DNA from: Candidatus Peregrinibacteria bacterium
GTDB lineage: Bacteria; Patescibacteriota; Gracilibacteria; UBA1369; LOWO2-01-FULL-3
Assembly: GCA_026395515.1 (NCBI GenBank)
Contig: JAPLYN010000005.1
Coordinates: 175,521 to 239,520, forward strand
Length of the DNA: 64,000 bases
Reading direction: 5' to 3'
In this document: positions 12,761 to 17,102 of the stretch, piece by piece
How the letters are laid out: every line of letters begins with the position of its first letter
Numbering within the stretch: position 1 is the first letter of the stretch
Notes under the pieces: model-generated
The model's input: the letters and a program-made list of their open reading frames with translations, nothing else
What the model was told of the DNA's origin: nothing
The model's database searches: none
Program-made: the position numbers and the translations under genes

Positions 12761-12769
12761 ATTATACCA
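12761..12769 (-). promoter_or_regulatory. extended -10 (TGGTATAAT) for the 455-aa protein gene
   Basis: Minus-strand TGGTATAAT overlaps the stop codon of the Elp3 gene. The predicted start is near 12754, with the ATG at 12737. The -35 (TGGAAC, 12784-12789) is poor, as expected when an extended -10 is present. Confidence 0.5.
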
Positions 12770-14471
12770 TTTTTACCATATAAGTTCCAGTAAGTTTATA
12801 GCCTTTTTTGGCATAATACTCACGTGTTCCAATACCGGCAATTACCGCCATTTTCTTATATCCAGCCTCCTTCGCCATTCTTTCAGCATCCTTCATCAAT
12901 CTCGTCCCCCACCCTACGTGTTGTTTTTCACCTTTTTCTTTATTGCCAATGGCAATTTGTTTTCCATACACATGCACCTCACGAATGAGTGCGGCACCTT
13001 TTAGCTCAGGAATAAAAGTCTTTTTAGGGAATCTCAAACGAAGCAAAGCCACAAGTTTATCTTGCTTCACATCTTCATATGACATAAAAAATTCTTGGCC
13101 TCCTTGAGCCATATATTTACGTACCACGAGTTCTACATGGGTGGGATCTACAATTGTATTCTGAATTTCGCGAGCTCTAATATCACGACAAGGTTTACCC
13201 ATCTTTTTAAGTCTTTCCTCGAGAATTTGGCGAATATTTGAAGACTTAAATCCAGACTCAATATCAGTAGAAGGAATATCGCGAGCGATACGATCGATAC
13301 GACACCATTCCGGCACATCCTTAATTTCCTGAAGTAAAATATCTTCTAAAGTTTTATCATCATAGGTATTAAACAAGCCTTTTCTATAAATAGATGAAAG
13401 AATAGATTTCGGCACCACCACACATGGATAAATCTTCAAATAATCCGGTTGATACTTGTCATCGGCAAAAAGTTCACCAACCATTTTCTTATCAATTTCA
13501 GGAGTAGATCCTGGCAAATTCGGCATCATATGATAACTGATTTTAAAACCAGCATCCTTTAGTAAAGCAGTCGCTTCCACCACCGATTTCAAATCATGAC
13601 CTCGTTTAGTAATTTCTTGCACTCTATCATCAGTAGTTTGCACACCAATTTCCACTTTAGTTACGCCAAGATAGCGCAATCTTTTTACTTCTTCGTCATT
13701 AATAAAATCTGACCTCGTCTCGATATTTATTCCAATACAACGAACATCAGCCGTCTCATTTTCTTTCACAATTTGTTCCCAAGTCTGATTTTTTTTATTA
13801 AGAGGCTTAAGAATCACAGTATTCACTTTATCGCTACCATAAGCACTATCCACCGTTTCTTCCCTCACAATATCCTCCATTCTATCTGTCTTACCATGAT
13901 CAGTTTGCAAATAAAATTCATTCATCGCCTGCAAACATTTTTTCAAAAACCAAATTTGATAACGTTTAGTATAAGCACTCCAAGTACCACCAAGCACACG
14001 CAATTCTACCTTGGAAACTTCGTGACCAGTAATACTCAAAGCCTTCAGCCTCACAAACACCTGAGTGTAAGGATTAAATCTCTGACGAAAAGCTCTCTGC
14101 GCAGCCGGCTGGCTCGGCAAATAACTCTTCGGCATACGAACATCAGTAGGACAATAAATACATTTACCAGGACAAGGAAATGGCTTCATCAGCACAGTCA
14201 CCGGCGCCACACCACTCATGGTGCGAACACTTCTTTTCTGAATCAAGCTAAGCAGTTCCATGTTCTTTTCAATCTTTCCTTCCTTCACAAGATCAGTATA
14301 AGCCTTGATGAAAAACAGATTATGGAAAATCTTTCCCTTAAATTCCTTCATCATCCCATTACGAAACTTTTCAAATTCATGACGATCTTTGAAATGCTTC
14401 TTAGCAGCTCTCTCAATAATGACTCGAGCTAATACCTGATTGTCCTTTAAATCGAGTTTTGCGAAATCCAT
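12762..14471 (-). CDS. Elp3-family radical SAM/GNAT tRNA U34-modifying enzyme
   Basis: 569 aa, the size of Elp3. Elp3 builds the carboxymethyl group at C5 of wobble uridine (cm5U34) using acetyl-CoA and SAM. The radical SAM cluster ligands are Cys100, Cys104 and Cys107 in 'PCPGKCIYC', followed by the Elp3 markers 'MPKSYL' and 'RFNPYTQV'. The middle contains 'VEIGVQTTDD' and 'YHMMPNLPGSTPE'. The C-terminal GNAT domain (about 430-569) has the acetyl-CoA loop 'GWGTRLM' and 'REYYAKKGYKL'. It is standalone, without other Elongator subunits. A Trm9-like methyltransferase gene lies about 1.1 kb upstream on the other strand. Confidence 0.92.
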   Translation of the reverse strand: MDFAKLDLKDNQVLARVIIERAAKKHFKDRHEFEKFRNGMMKEFKGKIFHNLFFIKAYTDLVKEGKIEKNMELLSLIQKRSVRTMSGVAPVTVLMKPFPCPGKCIYCPTDVRMPKSYLPSQPAAQRAFRQRFNPYTQVFVRLKALSITGHEVSKVELRVLGGTWSAYTKRYQIWFLKKCLQAMNEFYLQTDHGKTDRMEDIVREETVDSAYGSDKVNTVILKPLNKKNQTWEQIVKENETADVRCIGINIETRSDFINDEEVKRLRYLGVTKVEIGVQTTDDRVQEITKRGHDLKSVVEATALLKDAGFKISYHMMPNLPGSTPEIDKKMVGELFADDKYQPDYLKIYPCVVVPKSILSSIYRKGLFNTYDDKTLEDILLQEIKDVPEWCRIDRIARDIPSTDIESGFKSSNIRQILEERLKKMGKPCRDIRAREIQNTIVDPTHVELVVRKYMAQGGQEFFMSYEDVKQDKLVALLRLRFPKKTFIPELKGAALIREVHVYGKQIAIGNKEKGEKQHVGWGTRLMKDAERMAKEAGYKKMAVIAGIGTREYYAKKGYKLTGTYMVKMV

Positions 14472-14478
14472 AATTTGC

Positions 14479-14490
14479 TTTATAGCAAAA
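14479..14490 (-). promoter_or_regulatory. extended -10 (TTTTGC-TATAAA) for the Elp3 gene, leaderless arrangement
   Basis: Minus-strand TGC-TATAAA (hexamer 14479-14484) ends 7 nt before the ATG at 14471, so transcription would start at or next to the A of the ATG. The same bases also form a 6-bp inverted repeat (TTTGCT/AGCAAA). Confidence 0.5.
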
Positions 14491-14508
14491 GGATTTTAGC
14501 ACATCTGA

Positions 14509-15564
14509 CTAGATTCTCAACATCGCTTTAGCTGCTTCGTAATTTTTGCCAAGACGAGTAGGATAATCTTCCGCAGGAGACTCTAACTTCTCACCCTTTT
14601 TCTTCTTCTTATTTCTTTCATTAATACGAGCATTTTCTTTTTTTACGGCAAGTTGCCAATTTCCATTATAGAAAGAGGCAAAATCCTCAGTTTTACCTTC
14701 CAGAGGAAAAAGATCTTGGAAATTATCCGGATCCTTTTCAATCATAAAAGCTAAAAACAATTTCACTGAATTTTTAGGTGTAAGAGTTTGCCCCTCCGTC
14801 ATCCAAAGATTTTGTCGCGCCTTGAGTCCCGCACCATGCATTAAAATATGGAACAAACTAAGAGAATAAGCCTTCTGATTACCTTGATATCTAAAAAGCG
14901 AAAACTGATCAAATCTTCCGTTGCCTGATTCTGTTTTGGCACAAGCAAGCATCATTGCCACAATCTGATCCTCTGTAGTTTTTTTTAATAATTCCACAAT
15001 GAAGCGTCCATAAATCGGGTCTTTCTGTATTTCCTTAATGGCATCTCTACAGTCATCAATAAATTTTTCATCTGTTAATCCTTCTGCCGGGGAATGATGA
15101 GGTGGAATAATAATCCATTTACCAGGATGCAAATCATTACCTGAAATATTAAAACCTTTAATTTTTGATTTAGATAAATCTTTCAAATAAGAAAAAAATG
15201 GAAACCTCGACAATTTTTCTGTAATCACCGCGAAAGAATCCGCCTCTTGAACCAGATAATAATTAATACCAACATCATGCCTCATTATAATCCCCTCACC
15301 CATCTTCATCGTTCTTAAAGCCTTCTCCTCATCTGGAAATTCTCCATTAGGATATTTGGCGACATAACTATCCGTAAACTTTTTACTATCATAACGCGCA
15401 TCAACATTCATAATAGCCAAATTTCTTCTAGAATCGATGGACTTAGCTTTTAAAACCTTCTTAGCCTCTAAATGTTCAGCCTTAACCACAGGTTTCTCAA
15501 CCTTTCTTGTTTTTTCTACAACTTTTGCTCGGCCACCTTTTTCGAAAGCCGGAGGTTTTCCCAT
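14509..15564 (-). CDS. LysM-like plus lysozyme/transglycosylase-like protein
   Basis: 351 aa from the ATG at 15564 ('MGKPPAFEKGG'); an ATG at 15606 would add 14 residues and is also possible. A basic, disordered N terminus (1-60) is followed by a LysM-like segment at about 102-154 ('YYLVQEADSFAVI' ... 'NDLHPGKWIIIP'). The C-terminal half resembles a lysozyme-like fold: Glu212 in 'AKTESGNGRF' is the candidate general acid, and 'FASFYNGNW' and 'TRLGKNYEAAK' match its later helices. It would bind or cut peptidoglycan, yet no signal peptide is visible. Family assignment is by motif only. Confidence 0.6.
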   Translation of the reverse strand: MGKPPAFEKGGRAKVVEKTRKVEKPVVKAEHLEAKKVLKAKSIDSRRNLAIMNVDARYDSKKFTDSYVAKYPNGEFPDEEKALRTMKMGEGIIMRHDVGINYYLVQEADSFAVITEKLSRFPFFSYLKDLSKSKIKGFNISGNDLHPGKWIIIPPHHSPAEGLTDEKFIDDCRDAIKEIQKDPIYGRFIVELLKKTTEDQIVAMMLACAKTESGNGRFDQFSLFRYQGNQKAYSLSLFHILMHGAGLKARQNLWMTEGQTLTPKNSVKLFLAFMIEKDPDNFQDLFPLEGKTEDFASFYNGNWQLAVKKENARINERNKKKKKGEKLESPAEDYPTRLGKNYEAAKAMLRI

Positions 15565-15593
15565 TTGGTATTCCAATTTCGTTAATTTATCTC

Positions 15594-15599
15594 TATATT
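15594..15599 (+). promoter_or_regulatory. -10 box (TATATT) for the Trm9-like gene, leaderless arrangement
   Basis: TATATT ends 7 nt before the ATG at 15607; the -35 candidate TTCCAA (15571-15576) is 17 nt upstream. Transcription would begin at or within a nucleotide of the start codon. The divergent LysM gene shares this region. Confidence 0.45.
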
Positions 15600-15606
15600 T
15601 TAGCAT

Positions 15607-16293
15607 ATGAAAGACAAAATCGCAAAGGAGCTGATGACAAAAGTCATTAAAGACTACGACGAAATTGCTGAAGAATTCGACAACACTAGAAATCAACCCT
15701 GGAAGGAATTCGAAATTTTTCTGAAATACATAGGAAACGACGAGAAAATCGCTGATTTGGGCTGCGGAAATGGTAGATTATTCGAATTTTTGAAGAAAAA
15801 TCGCCAAATTCAGTACGTTGGAGTAGATAACAGTAAAAACCTCCTCGAGCTCGCAAAGAAGAAATATAAGAACAACACCAACGCTAAATTCCTAGAAGGA
15901 GACCTAATAAATACAAACCTGGAAACTAATTCTGTAGATGCCATCACTGCCATCGCTTCCTTCCATCACCTGCCTGGCAAGGATACAAGAAAAAAGTCTC
16001 TCCAAGAAATACACAGAATTCTCAAAGACGAAGGCATCCTTATCATCAGCGTCTGGAATTTATTTCAGGACAAGTATAAAAAATACGTTTGGAAAGCTCG
16101 TCTCAAACATATAGTATCTTTAGGAAAATATGATTGGCGCGATACCATGATTCCTTGGGGAAAAACCAGCATTGATAGATATTACTACGCCTTCAAAACT
16201 ACCGAACTAAAACAATTACTAGAAACCCACGGCTTCAAAGTTTTGGAAACCGTCATTGATAACAATTTCGTTTTCATATGTCAGAAACAATAA
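15607..16293 (+). CDS. Trm9/ALKBH8-like class I SAM methyltransferase
   Basis: 228 aa. The N terminus 'YDEIA...F..TRNQPW' (17-32) matches the YNEIAPHFSxTRxxPW opening of Trm9-type enzymes. SAM motif I is 'ADLGCGNGRL' (49-58). The post-motif 'FHHLPGKDTRKKSLQEIHRIL' region, 'SVWN', and the late pair 'MIPW' (181-184) and 'RYYYAF' (191-196) correspond to the 'F/VPW' and 'RYYH' elements of Trm9. Trm9 methylates cm5U34 to mcm5U34, the step after Elp3. The comparison is from memory of the family; a generic methyltransferase remains possible. It overlaps the glycosyltransferase gene by 16 nt. Confidence 0.72.
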   Translation: MKDKIAKELMTKVIKDYDEIAEEFDNTRNQPWKEFEIFLKYIGNDEKIADLGCGNGRLFEFLKKNRQIQYVGVDNSKNLLELAKKKYKNNTNAKFLEGDLINTNLETNSVDAITAIASFHHLPGKDTRKKSLQEIHRILKDEGILIISVWNLFQDKYKKYVWKARLKHIVSLGKYDWRDTMIPWGKTSIDRYYYAFKTTELKQLLETHGFKVLETVIDNNFVFICQKQ

Positions 16294-17102
16294 AAATTCT
16301 AGGAGTCAGATTCGATAAAGTGAGCAGGAAAGACGCTCTAGAGAAAGCCATTTCTTTTGCAAAAGACAAACATCAGCACTACATCTGCACGCCTAATCCT
16401 GAAATTCTCCTCGCTGCTCAAAACAATCCTAAATACCTAGAAGTCCTCAATCATTCAGATCTGAATATCGCGGATGGCATTGGTATTCTTTGGGCTAGCA
16501 AATTTGAAAAAATCACGGAACACAATAAGAGGAATCCAGGCATTTTTGCCAAATGGCTCTCTTCCCTATCCTCTATTCTTTTTTATCCAAAATATATTCG
16601 CACCGAACTCGCTGAAAGAGTAACTGGCACTGACCTCATGCAAGATATTTGCAAAGAAGGTGCTTATCAAAATCTGAAAGTATTTCTCCTCGGCGCTGCC
16701 GAAGGCGTGGCGGAAAAAGTGAAAACAATTCTGGAAAAGAAACATCCTGGAATAAAAATCGTCGGCACTTTCGCCGGATCAGCAAGCCAAGAAGATGAGG
16801 ATGATATAATTAAAAGAATAAATAAAACTGACGCGCAAATTCTTTTCATCGCCTATGGCGCACCAGCTCAAGAATTCTGGATTTCTAGAAACTTAAAAAA
16901 ACTAAACACAGTTAAACTCGCTATCGGCATAGGCGGCGCTTTCGATTATATCGCCGGCATCCGCAAACGCGCCCCAAAACTCCTTCAAAAACTCGGCGCC
17001 GAATGGCTCTACCGTTTGATTCAACAACCTTCCAGAATTAAAAGAATCTTCAATGCGACTGTGAAATTTCCAGTCAAAATATTATCTAAAAGATTGAAGT
17101 AA
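16278..17102 (+). CDS. WecG/TagA/CpsF-family glycosyltransferase
   Basis: 274 aa (usual ~240-260 aa plus a basic C-terminal helix). The family signature runs from about 36 to 70: 'TPNPEILLAAQNNPKY' ... 'NIADGIGI', with the catalytic Asp in 'ADG'. 'VTGTDLM', 'FLLGAAEGVAEK' and 'GAPAQEFWI' follow, and 'RAPKLLQKLGAEWLYRL' is the conserved membrane-associated tail. It transfers a sugar (ManNAc-type in known members) to an undecaprenyl-linked acceptor. It overlaps the methyltransferase by 16 nt and the convergent ankyrin gene by 21 nt. Confidence 0.92.
   Translation: MSETIKILGVRFDKVSRKDALEKAISFAKDKHQHYICTPNPEILLAAQNNPKYLEVLNHSDLNIADGIGILWASKFEKITEHNKRNPGIFAKWLSSLSSILFYPKYIRTELAERVTGTDLMQDICKEGAYQNLKVFLLGAAEGVAEKVKTILEKKHPGIKIVGTFAGSASQEDEDDIIKRINKTDAQILFIAYGAPAQEFWISRNLKKLNTVKLAIGIGGAFDYIAGIRKRAPKLLQKLGAEWLYRLIQQPSRIKRIFNATVKFPVKILSKRLK

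Follow-up and report, generated by a model that had tools for sequence, protein, structure and literature searches.

A divergent Elp3 and Trm9-like gene pair points to a Trm112-free route to mcm5U34 in Patescibacteria

The window analyzed here, a 64,000-nucleotide stretch of contig JAPLYN010000005.1 from a Candidatus Peregrinibacteria bacterium, carries a gene for the radical S-adenosylmethionine (SAM) enzyme Elp3 and, on the opposite strand, a gene for a methyltransferase that resembles eukaryotic Trm9. Together with the thiolase MnmA, these two proteins very probably form a wobble-uridine route to 5-methoxycarbonylmethyluridine (mcm5U34) and its 2-thio derivative (mcm5s2U34) that dispenses with Trm112 and replaces MnmE/MnmG, and the organism probably finishes its wobble uridines in the eukaryotic manner (as mcm5U) instead of via MnmE/MnmG. 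The route is built on what is observed in the genomes: the identities of the genes, the conservation of key residues, the co-occurrence and linkage of the pair, the absence of MnmE, MnmG and Trm112, and the presence of MnmA and of tRNAs with U34. The host genome (1.30 Mb in 6 contigs, 99.9% complete) has Candidatus Peregrinibacteria as its named relatives, and its two central genes are as follows (cm5U34, 5-carboxymethyluridine at position 34).

12762..14471, minus strand: Elp3 (radical SAM plus GNAT/KAT), 569 residues, proposed cm5U34 synthase; TIGR01211, 555.8 bits.
15607..16293, plus strand: Trm9-like SAM methyltransferase, 228 residues, proposed cm5U34 carboxyl methyltransferase; best Protein Data Bank (PDB) match 5cm2_Z.

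The two genes are divergent and 1.1 kb apart, and both pairs of coordinates agree with the first-pass annotation of this DNA, which had described an Elp3-type gene beside one for a 228-residue methyltransferase. Its assignment of Elp3, based on Cys100/104/107 and a GNAT domain, also holds: the TIGR01211 match is well above the cut-off of 350 (E = 8e-167) and spans model positions 2-521 of 522, and archaeal and yeast Elp3 structures rank best among the PDB matches. The Fe-S cysteines (Cys100, Cys104 and Cys107) are spaced Cx3Cx2C. The acetyl-CoA/catalytic residues of MinElp3, K150, K266, Q461 and Y517 (PMC6367351), align with K154, K310, E498 and Y552 of the window protein, in which the Glu at position 498 is as in DmcElp3 (E386) and H500 is likewise present. 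The Cx3Cx2C spacing recurs in all 97 Elp3 open reading frames (ORFs) whose cluster was inspected, the archaeal Elp3 matched in the PDB having Cx4Cx2C. Of its three linker zinc cysteines, the window protein has lost two (CRDIRARE), whereas most other Patescibacteria copies that were checked retain them (CxCIRCRE).

For the methyltransferase (METHYLTRANSFERASE), Pfam finds only the generic Methyltransf_11 family and its kin. Among all PDB sequences, the protein best matches Trm9 of Y. lipolytica (5cm2_Z, E = 6.9e-14, 29-31% identity), in an alignment that extends from the TR..PW motif over HH as far as PW and RYY, and a 47-row profile of the family again ranks 5cm2_Z first (4e-29), with the next protein at 2e-22. 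The motifs that had earlier been read as following the Trm9 pattern in order (YDEIA..F..TRNQPW, FHHL, MIPW and RYYYAF) are all found in the protein. In yeast Trm9 (ScTrm9), the substitutions R29A, H115A, R241A, Y243A and N271A strongly affect both activity and tRNA affinity (PMC5372719). As judged from the alignment with Y. lipolytica Trm9, the corresponding residues in the window protein are R28, H120, R191, Y193 and N220, and these are conserved in 105, 94, 95, 77 and 98 of the 105 family members, respectively. The window protein has both of two adjacent histidines, and H120 is taken as the counterpart of H115 on the basis of the yeast numbering. The lid motif P[WF]..R[YF].. is found in 77 (strict form) to 92 (relaxed form) of the 105 members and in none of 22 comparison methyltransferases. 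Orthologues are spread across the order and the phylum, so the observation is more than chance. One family member, in a Magasanikbacteria genome (L084:3965-5107), is fused to a C-terminal NUDIX domain.

The distribution of the two genes was examined in 192 Patescibacteria genomes, each at least 85% complete, with near-full-length matches of at least 102 bits counted as Trm9-like. Elp3 is present in 71 of these genomes and the Trm9-like gene in 52, each time together with Elp3; the 121 genomes lacking Elp3 are all without the Trm9-like gene (Fisher p = 3e-31, uncorrected for kinship), and 19 of the 192 have Elp3 without it. A nested distribution of this kind is as expected of a downstream enzyme. 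All seven Elp3-bearing genomes of the group that we label f32 have Elp3 without the methyltransferase.

Linkage is equally regular. The pair is divergent and less than 500 bp apart in 42 of the 52 genomes, with a median same-contig gap of 123 bp. Among 60 relatives of the host, 54 have both genes, and all 49 same-contig pairs at the level of the order are adjacent and divergent, 43 of them with a gap of 41-409 bp; in the window's own genus the gap is ∼1 kb and an extra ORF lies between the pair. Across 80 named loci drawn from many classes of Patescibacteria, Elp3 is found upstream on the opposite strand in 62, while other neighbor families reach at most 12 loci, with the exception of an order-level gene for a WecG-type glycosyltransferase (in this count, WecG was merged with the methyltransferase cluster via fusions). 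For the 16 loci without an adjacent Elp3 and 2 of odd taxonomy, Elp3 is encoded somewhere in 15 of the 18 genomes, and the three genomes without it are metagenome-assembled genomes (MAGs) of unknown completeness. Trm9-like genes also turn up in genomes labeled as other phyla (L065, Ignavibacteriales; L100, Lysobacteraceae; L102, Omnitrophota); in L065 and L100 the neighboring gene is Elp3, divergently oriented as usual, and these two may be mis-binned Patescibacteria contigs.

The remainder of the U34 machinery was then considered. MnmE and MnmG are found in only four of the 192 Patescibacteria genomes (the same four for both), none of which has Elp3, and this is not search blindness, since the same searches match in 9 of 14 control genomes. 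With MnmE/MnmG lost, no known C5 route other than Elp3 was found in these cells (the searches did not include CmoA/CmoB). MnmA, by contrast with MnmE/MnmG, is common to the bacterial route and the present one, and is found in 20 of 21 relatives, the window's genome included. A free-standing Trm112 gene was found in none of 103 genomes (the 60 relatives, including the host's own genome, and 43 further Trm9-positive genomes): all ten matches to the Trm112 family PF03966 lie within long open frames (296-686 residues), and the search gave matches in 9 of 14 control genomes. The first-pass observation that no Trm112-like gene is visible thus extends to the whole host genome, and its suggestion that the pair works without Trm112 is backed by this absence; the searches did not include Elp1, Elp2 and Elp4-6. 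Tallying the tRNAs of the genome, we found U34 in those for Lys, Glu, Gln, Arg (UCU and UCG), Gly, Leu, Ser, Pro, Thr, Ala and Val. Two tRNA-Arg species, GCG and UCG, cover the Arg CGN box, and no Arg ACG tRNA was found in the host's own genome, so inosine 34 may be absent. In ∼117 of the 192 Patescibacteria genomes neither Elp3 nor MnmE/MnmG was found, i.e., no known C5 route for U34.

From these data we infer the reactions, their order and their tRNA targets. Judging from its family, Elp3 alone would use radical SAM chemistry and acetyl-CoA to carboxymethylate U34 at C5, yielding cm5U34 in split-box tRNAs. The Trm9-like enzyme would bind the anticodon loop, with R28, H120, R191, Y193 and N220 presumably placing cm5U34, and would donate the methyl group of SAM to the carboxyl of cm5U34 in the absence of Trm112, giving mcm5U34. 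In tRNA-Lys, tRNA-Glu and tRNA-Gln, MnmA would add the 2-thio group to this base, giving mcm5s2U34, and the route as a whole would stand in for MnmE/MnmG.

An AlphaFold2 model of the methyltransferase (predicted local distance difference test score 97.2; predicted template modeling score 0.92) has a class I fold with two lid strands (residues 179-184 and 189-194) covering the active site, a two-stranded lid that resembles the one described for Trm9 (PMC5372719). Foldseek places 5cm2_Z second, and in a VIA-align comparison with 1000 chains, all with Z of at least 8, it stands at row 42; no listed chain is closer in sequence (29% identity), but several have a higher Z. Because class I methyltransferase folds are alike, a fold search cannot single out Trm9. 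A tree of 61 rows, including E. coli UbiE, CmoM, BioC and CmoA and the 18 nearest generic Patescibacteria methyltransferases, was also calculated. In this tree Trm9 groups with a Heimdallarchaeota homologue (95/94), and Trm9 and the window protein both fall inside a set of 20 starred rows (96/99), apart from UbiE, CmoM, BioC, CmoA and the generic methyltransferases, in agreement with, but without proving, orthology of the window methyltransferase and Trm9. The MAG that supplies this Asgard homologue (L103) also encodes Elp3, with a strong match (650 bits).

Several points weigh against the proposed route and placement. The deep split from the other methyltransferases is supported at only 73/88, with long branches; the phylogeny contains a single eukaryotic sequence, which is N-terminally incomplete; an approximately unbiased (AU) test does not reject a position of Trm9 outside the family (p = 0.24); the VIA Z for Trm9 (21.1) is below that of several unrelated enzymes (23.8); and in one class the methyltransferase gene forms an operon-like arrangement or a fusion with the WecG glycosyltransferase gene. 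Moreover, mcm5U as the product of the pair is something that we infer. Of the placement with Trm9 and away from UbiE, the profile and sequence comparisons (failed UbiE models, Trm9 nearest) and the joining of Trm9 to the family in the tree have stood, while the statistical backing of that node is weak. A Patescibacteria clade without Trm9 and the Heimdallarchaeota sequence is not rejected either (AU p = 0.286), and we therefore make no statement on the direction of transfer. The bacterial two-enzyme route suggested in the first-pass annotation is nevertheless supported by placement and co-occurrence.

The fold of the methyltransferase is generic and UbiE models match it below their cut-offs, as they might if it were an ordinary UbiE/Methyltransf_11 enzyme that shares motifs with Trm9 by chance; we strongly disfavor this reading and give it hardly any weight, given that the UbiE cut-offs are missed by more than 85 bits, that the lid motif is confined to the family in the comparison given above, and that the gene is strictly nested within Elp3 genomes. 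In terms of named enzymes, UbiE/MenG was rejected on scores (72.7 bits against a cut-off of 216, and 69.9 against 158.35, in NCBIfam) and on the tree, CmoM on the 34 bits of the E. coli protein against the family profile and its separate position in the tree, and BioC on cut-offs, scores and tree; the nearest solved relative is Trm9. A closer competitor, although still an improbable one, is that Elp3-modified tRNA is indeed the substrate of the methyltransferase, with a product or a target site other than the one proposed (e.g., a different ester or amide precursor, or another base of the anticodon loop). Y193 and the lid vary in some lineages, and yeast trm9 mutants are reported also to accumulate 5-carbamoylmethyluridine (ncm5U; PMC3110198); on the other hand, the window protein has counterparts of all five ScTrm9 residues that place cm5U34.

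Two further genes lie at the locus.

14509..15696, minus strand: ORF between the Elp3 and methyltransferase genes, without a Pfam or NCBIfam match; found in the window's genus.
16278..17102, plus strand: WecG/TagA/CpsF-family glycosyltransferase (PF03808, 190.6 bits), overlapping the methyltransferase gene by 16 bp.

The start of the WecG gene overlaps the end of the methyltransferase gene by these 16 bp in a layout kept in nearly all members of the order, and in four loci the two are single ORFs (L039:3968-5521, L070:3920-5473, L086:3-1616 and L089:3953-5539; the window equivalent would be 15607-17102) that keep the signature motifs of both halves. It could accordingly be argued that the methyltransferase serves cell-envelope glycan synthesis together with WecG, methylating the transferred sugar (e.g., a uronic acid), and that its link to Elp3 is a matter of shared promoter geography. 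The distribution makes this reading unlikely, a shade more so than a different product on Elp3-modified tRNA: WecG is single-copy and is present in all seven f18 genomes (again our label), from which Elp3 and the methyltransferase are both missing; outside the window's class the methyltransferase stays beside Elp3 with WecG elsewhere or not found; every genome of the phylum sample that has the methyltransferase also has Elp3; and the Trm9 residues for tRNA binding are conserved even in family members distant from WecG. We read the arrangement as operon coupling followed by later fusion, with no proof of a common substrate, and a role for WecG in the pathway is not supported by its distribution. 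That in Gracilibacteria/Peregrinibacteria the glycosyltransferase also acts on tRNA, making a glycosylated cm5U derivative of a new type at the wobble uridine, appears highly improbable. The ORF at 14509..15696 is not thought to be part of the wobble-uridine pathway; its listed TTG start is probably too early, and an internal ATG lies near 15564. A gap of similar size is seen at this site in a second genome (G012).

If the Elp3/Trm9-like/MnmA route is correct, much of a major bacterial phylum seems to combine a side chain of eukaryotic and archaeal type with a bacterial thiolase, and two proteins take the place of the six-subunit Elongator plus Trm9-Trm112. A Trm9 predicted to be free of Trm112 offers a means of probing the function of Trm112, and the pair is a small system in which to study Elp3. 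As MnmE/MnmG are nearly absent from the phylum and no known C5 route was found in the ∼117 genomes noted above, the assumed need for a C5 modification of U34 becomes directly testable. Bacterial Elp3 was termed rare in 2019 (PMC6367351) and was described in 2026 as present in numerous bacteria (PMC13315578), and reviews assign (c)mnm5s2U34, the 5-(carboxymethyl)aminomethyl-2-thiouridine type, to bacteria and mcm5s2U34 to eukaryotes (PMC5400242). A literature search covering few subscription papers and no bioRxiv preprints gave no report of a bacterial Trm9, a bacterial Elp3/Trm9 pair, Elp3 in the candidate phyla radiation (CPR)/Patescibacteria or Patescibacteria routes to modified U34.

Compared with eukaryotic Trm9-Trm112 and ALKBH8, the Patescibacteria system is alike in sequence (29-31% identity to Y. 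lipolytica Trm9), in the two-stranded lid, in the five residues and in the pairing with Elp3, but these genomes have no free-standing Trm112 gene, and the methyltransferase gene is linked to Elp3. No Elongator scaffold is known in bacteria, and the window methyltransferase is shorter and lacks the long insertion that precedes RYY in yeast Trm9. With the bacterial MnmE/MnmG(/MnmC)-MnmA route to (c)mnm5s2U34 it shares the base, the decoding job and MnmA, whereas here MnmE and MnmG are absent and Elp3 builds the C5 group. E. coli CmoM likewise forms a methyl ester on the carboxyl of a U34 C5 substituent, but its substrate is uridine 5-oxyacetic acid (cmo5U), and in score and tree it stands apart. 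The closest precedent is archaeal: mcm5s2U-like bases were predicted to be formed in archaea by homologues of Elp3 and Trm9, whose genes lie in a cluster in Sulfolobus solfataricus (PMC2584109; PMC5372719), and cm5U34 formation has been shown for archaeal Elp3 according to literature cited in PMC5372719. Haloferax volcanii and S. solfataricus thus resemble the present case in their stand-alone Elp3, Trm9 homologue and proposed mcm5s2U (PMC2584109; PMC5372719), but archaea use the thiolase Tuc1/NcsA and many have Trm112, whereas the Patescibacteria have MnmA, no Trm112 and a divergent gene pair spread widely through the phylum. Hence, what is new here relative to the archaeal precedent is a pair that is bacterial, Trm112-free and combined with MnmA.

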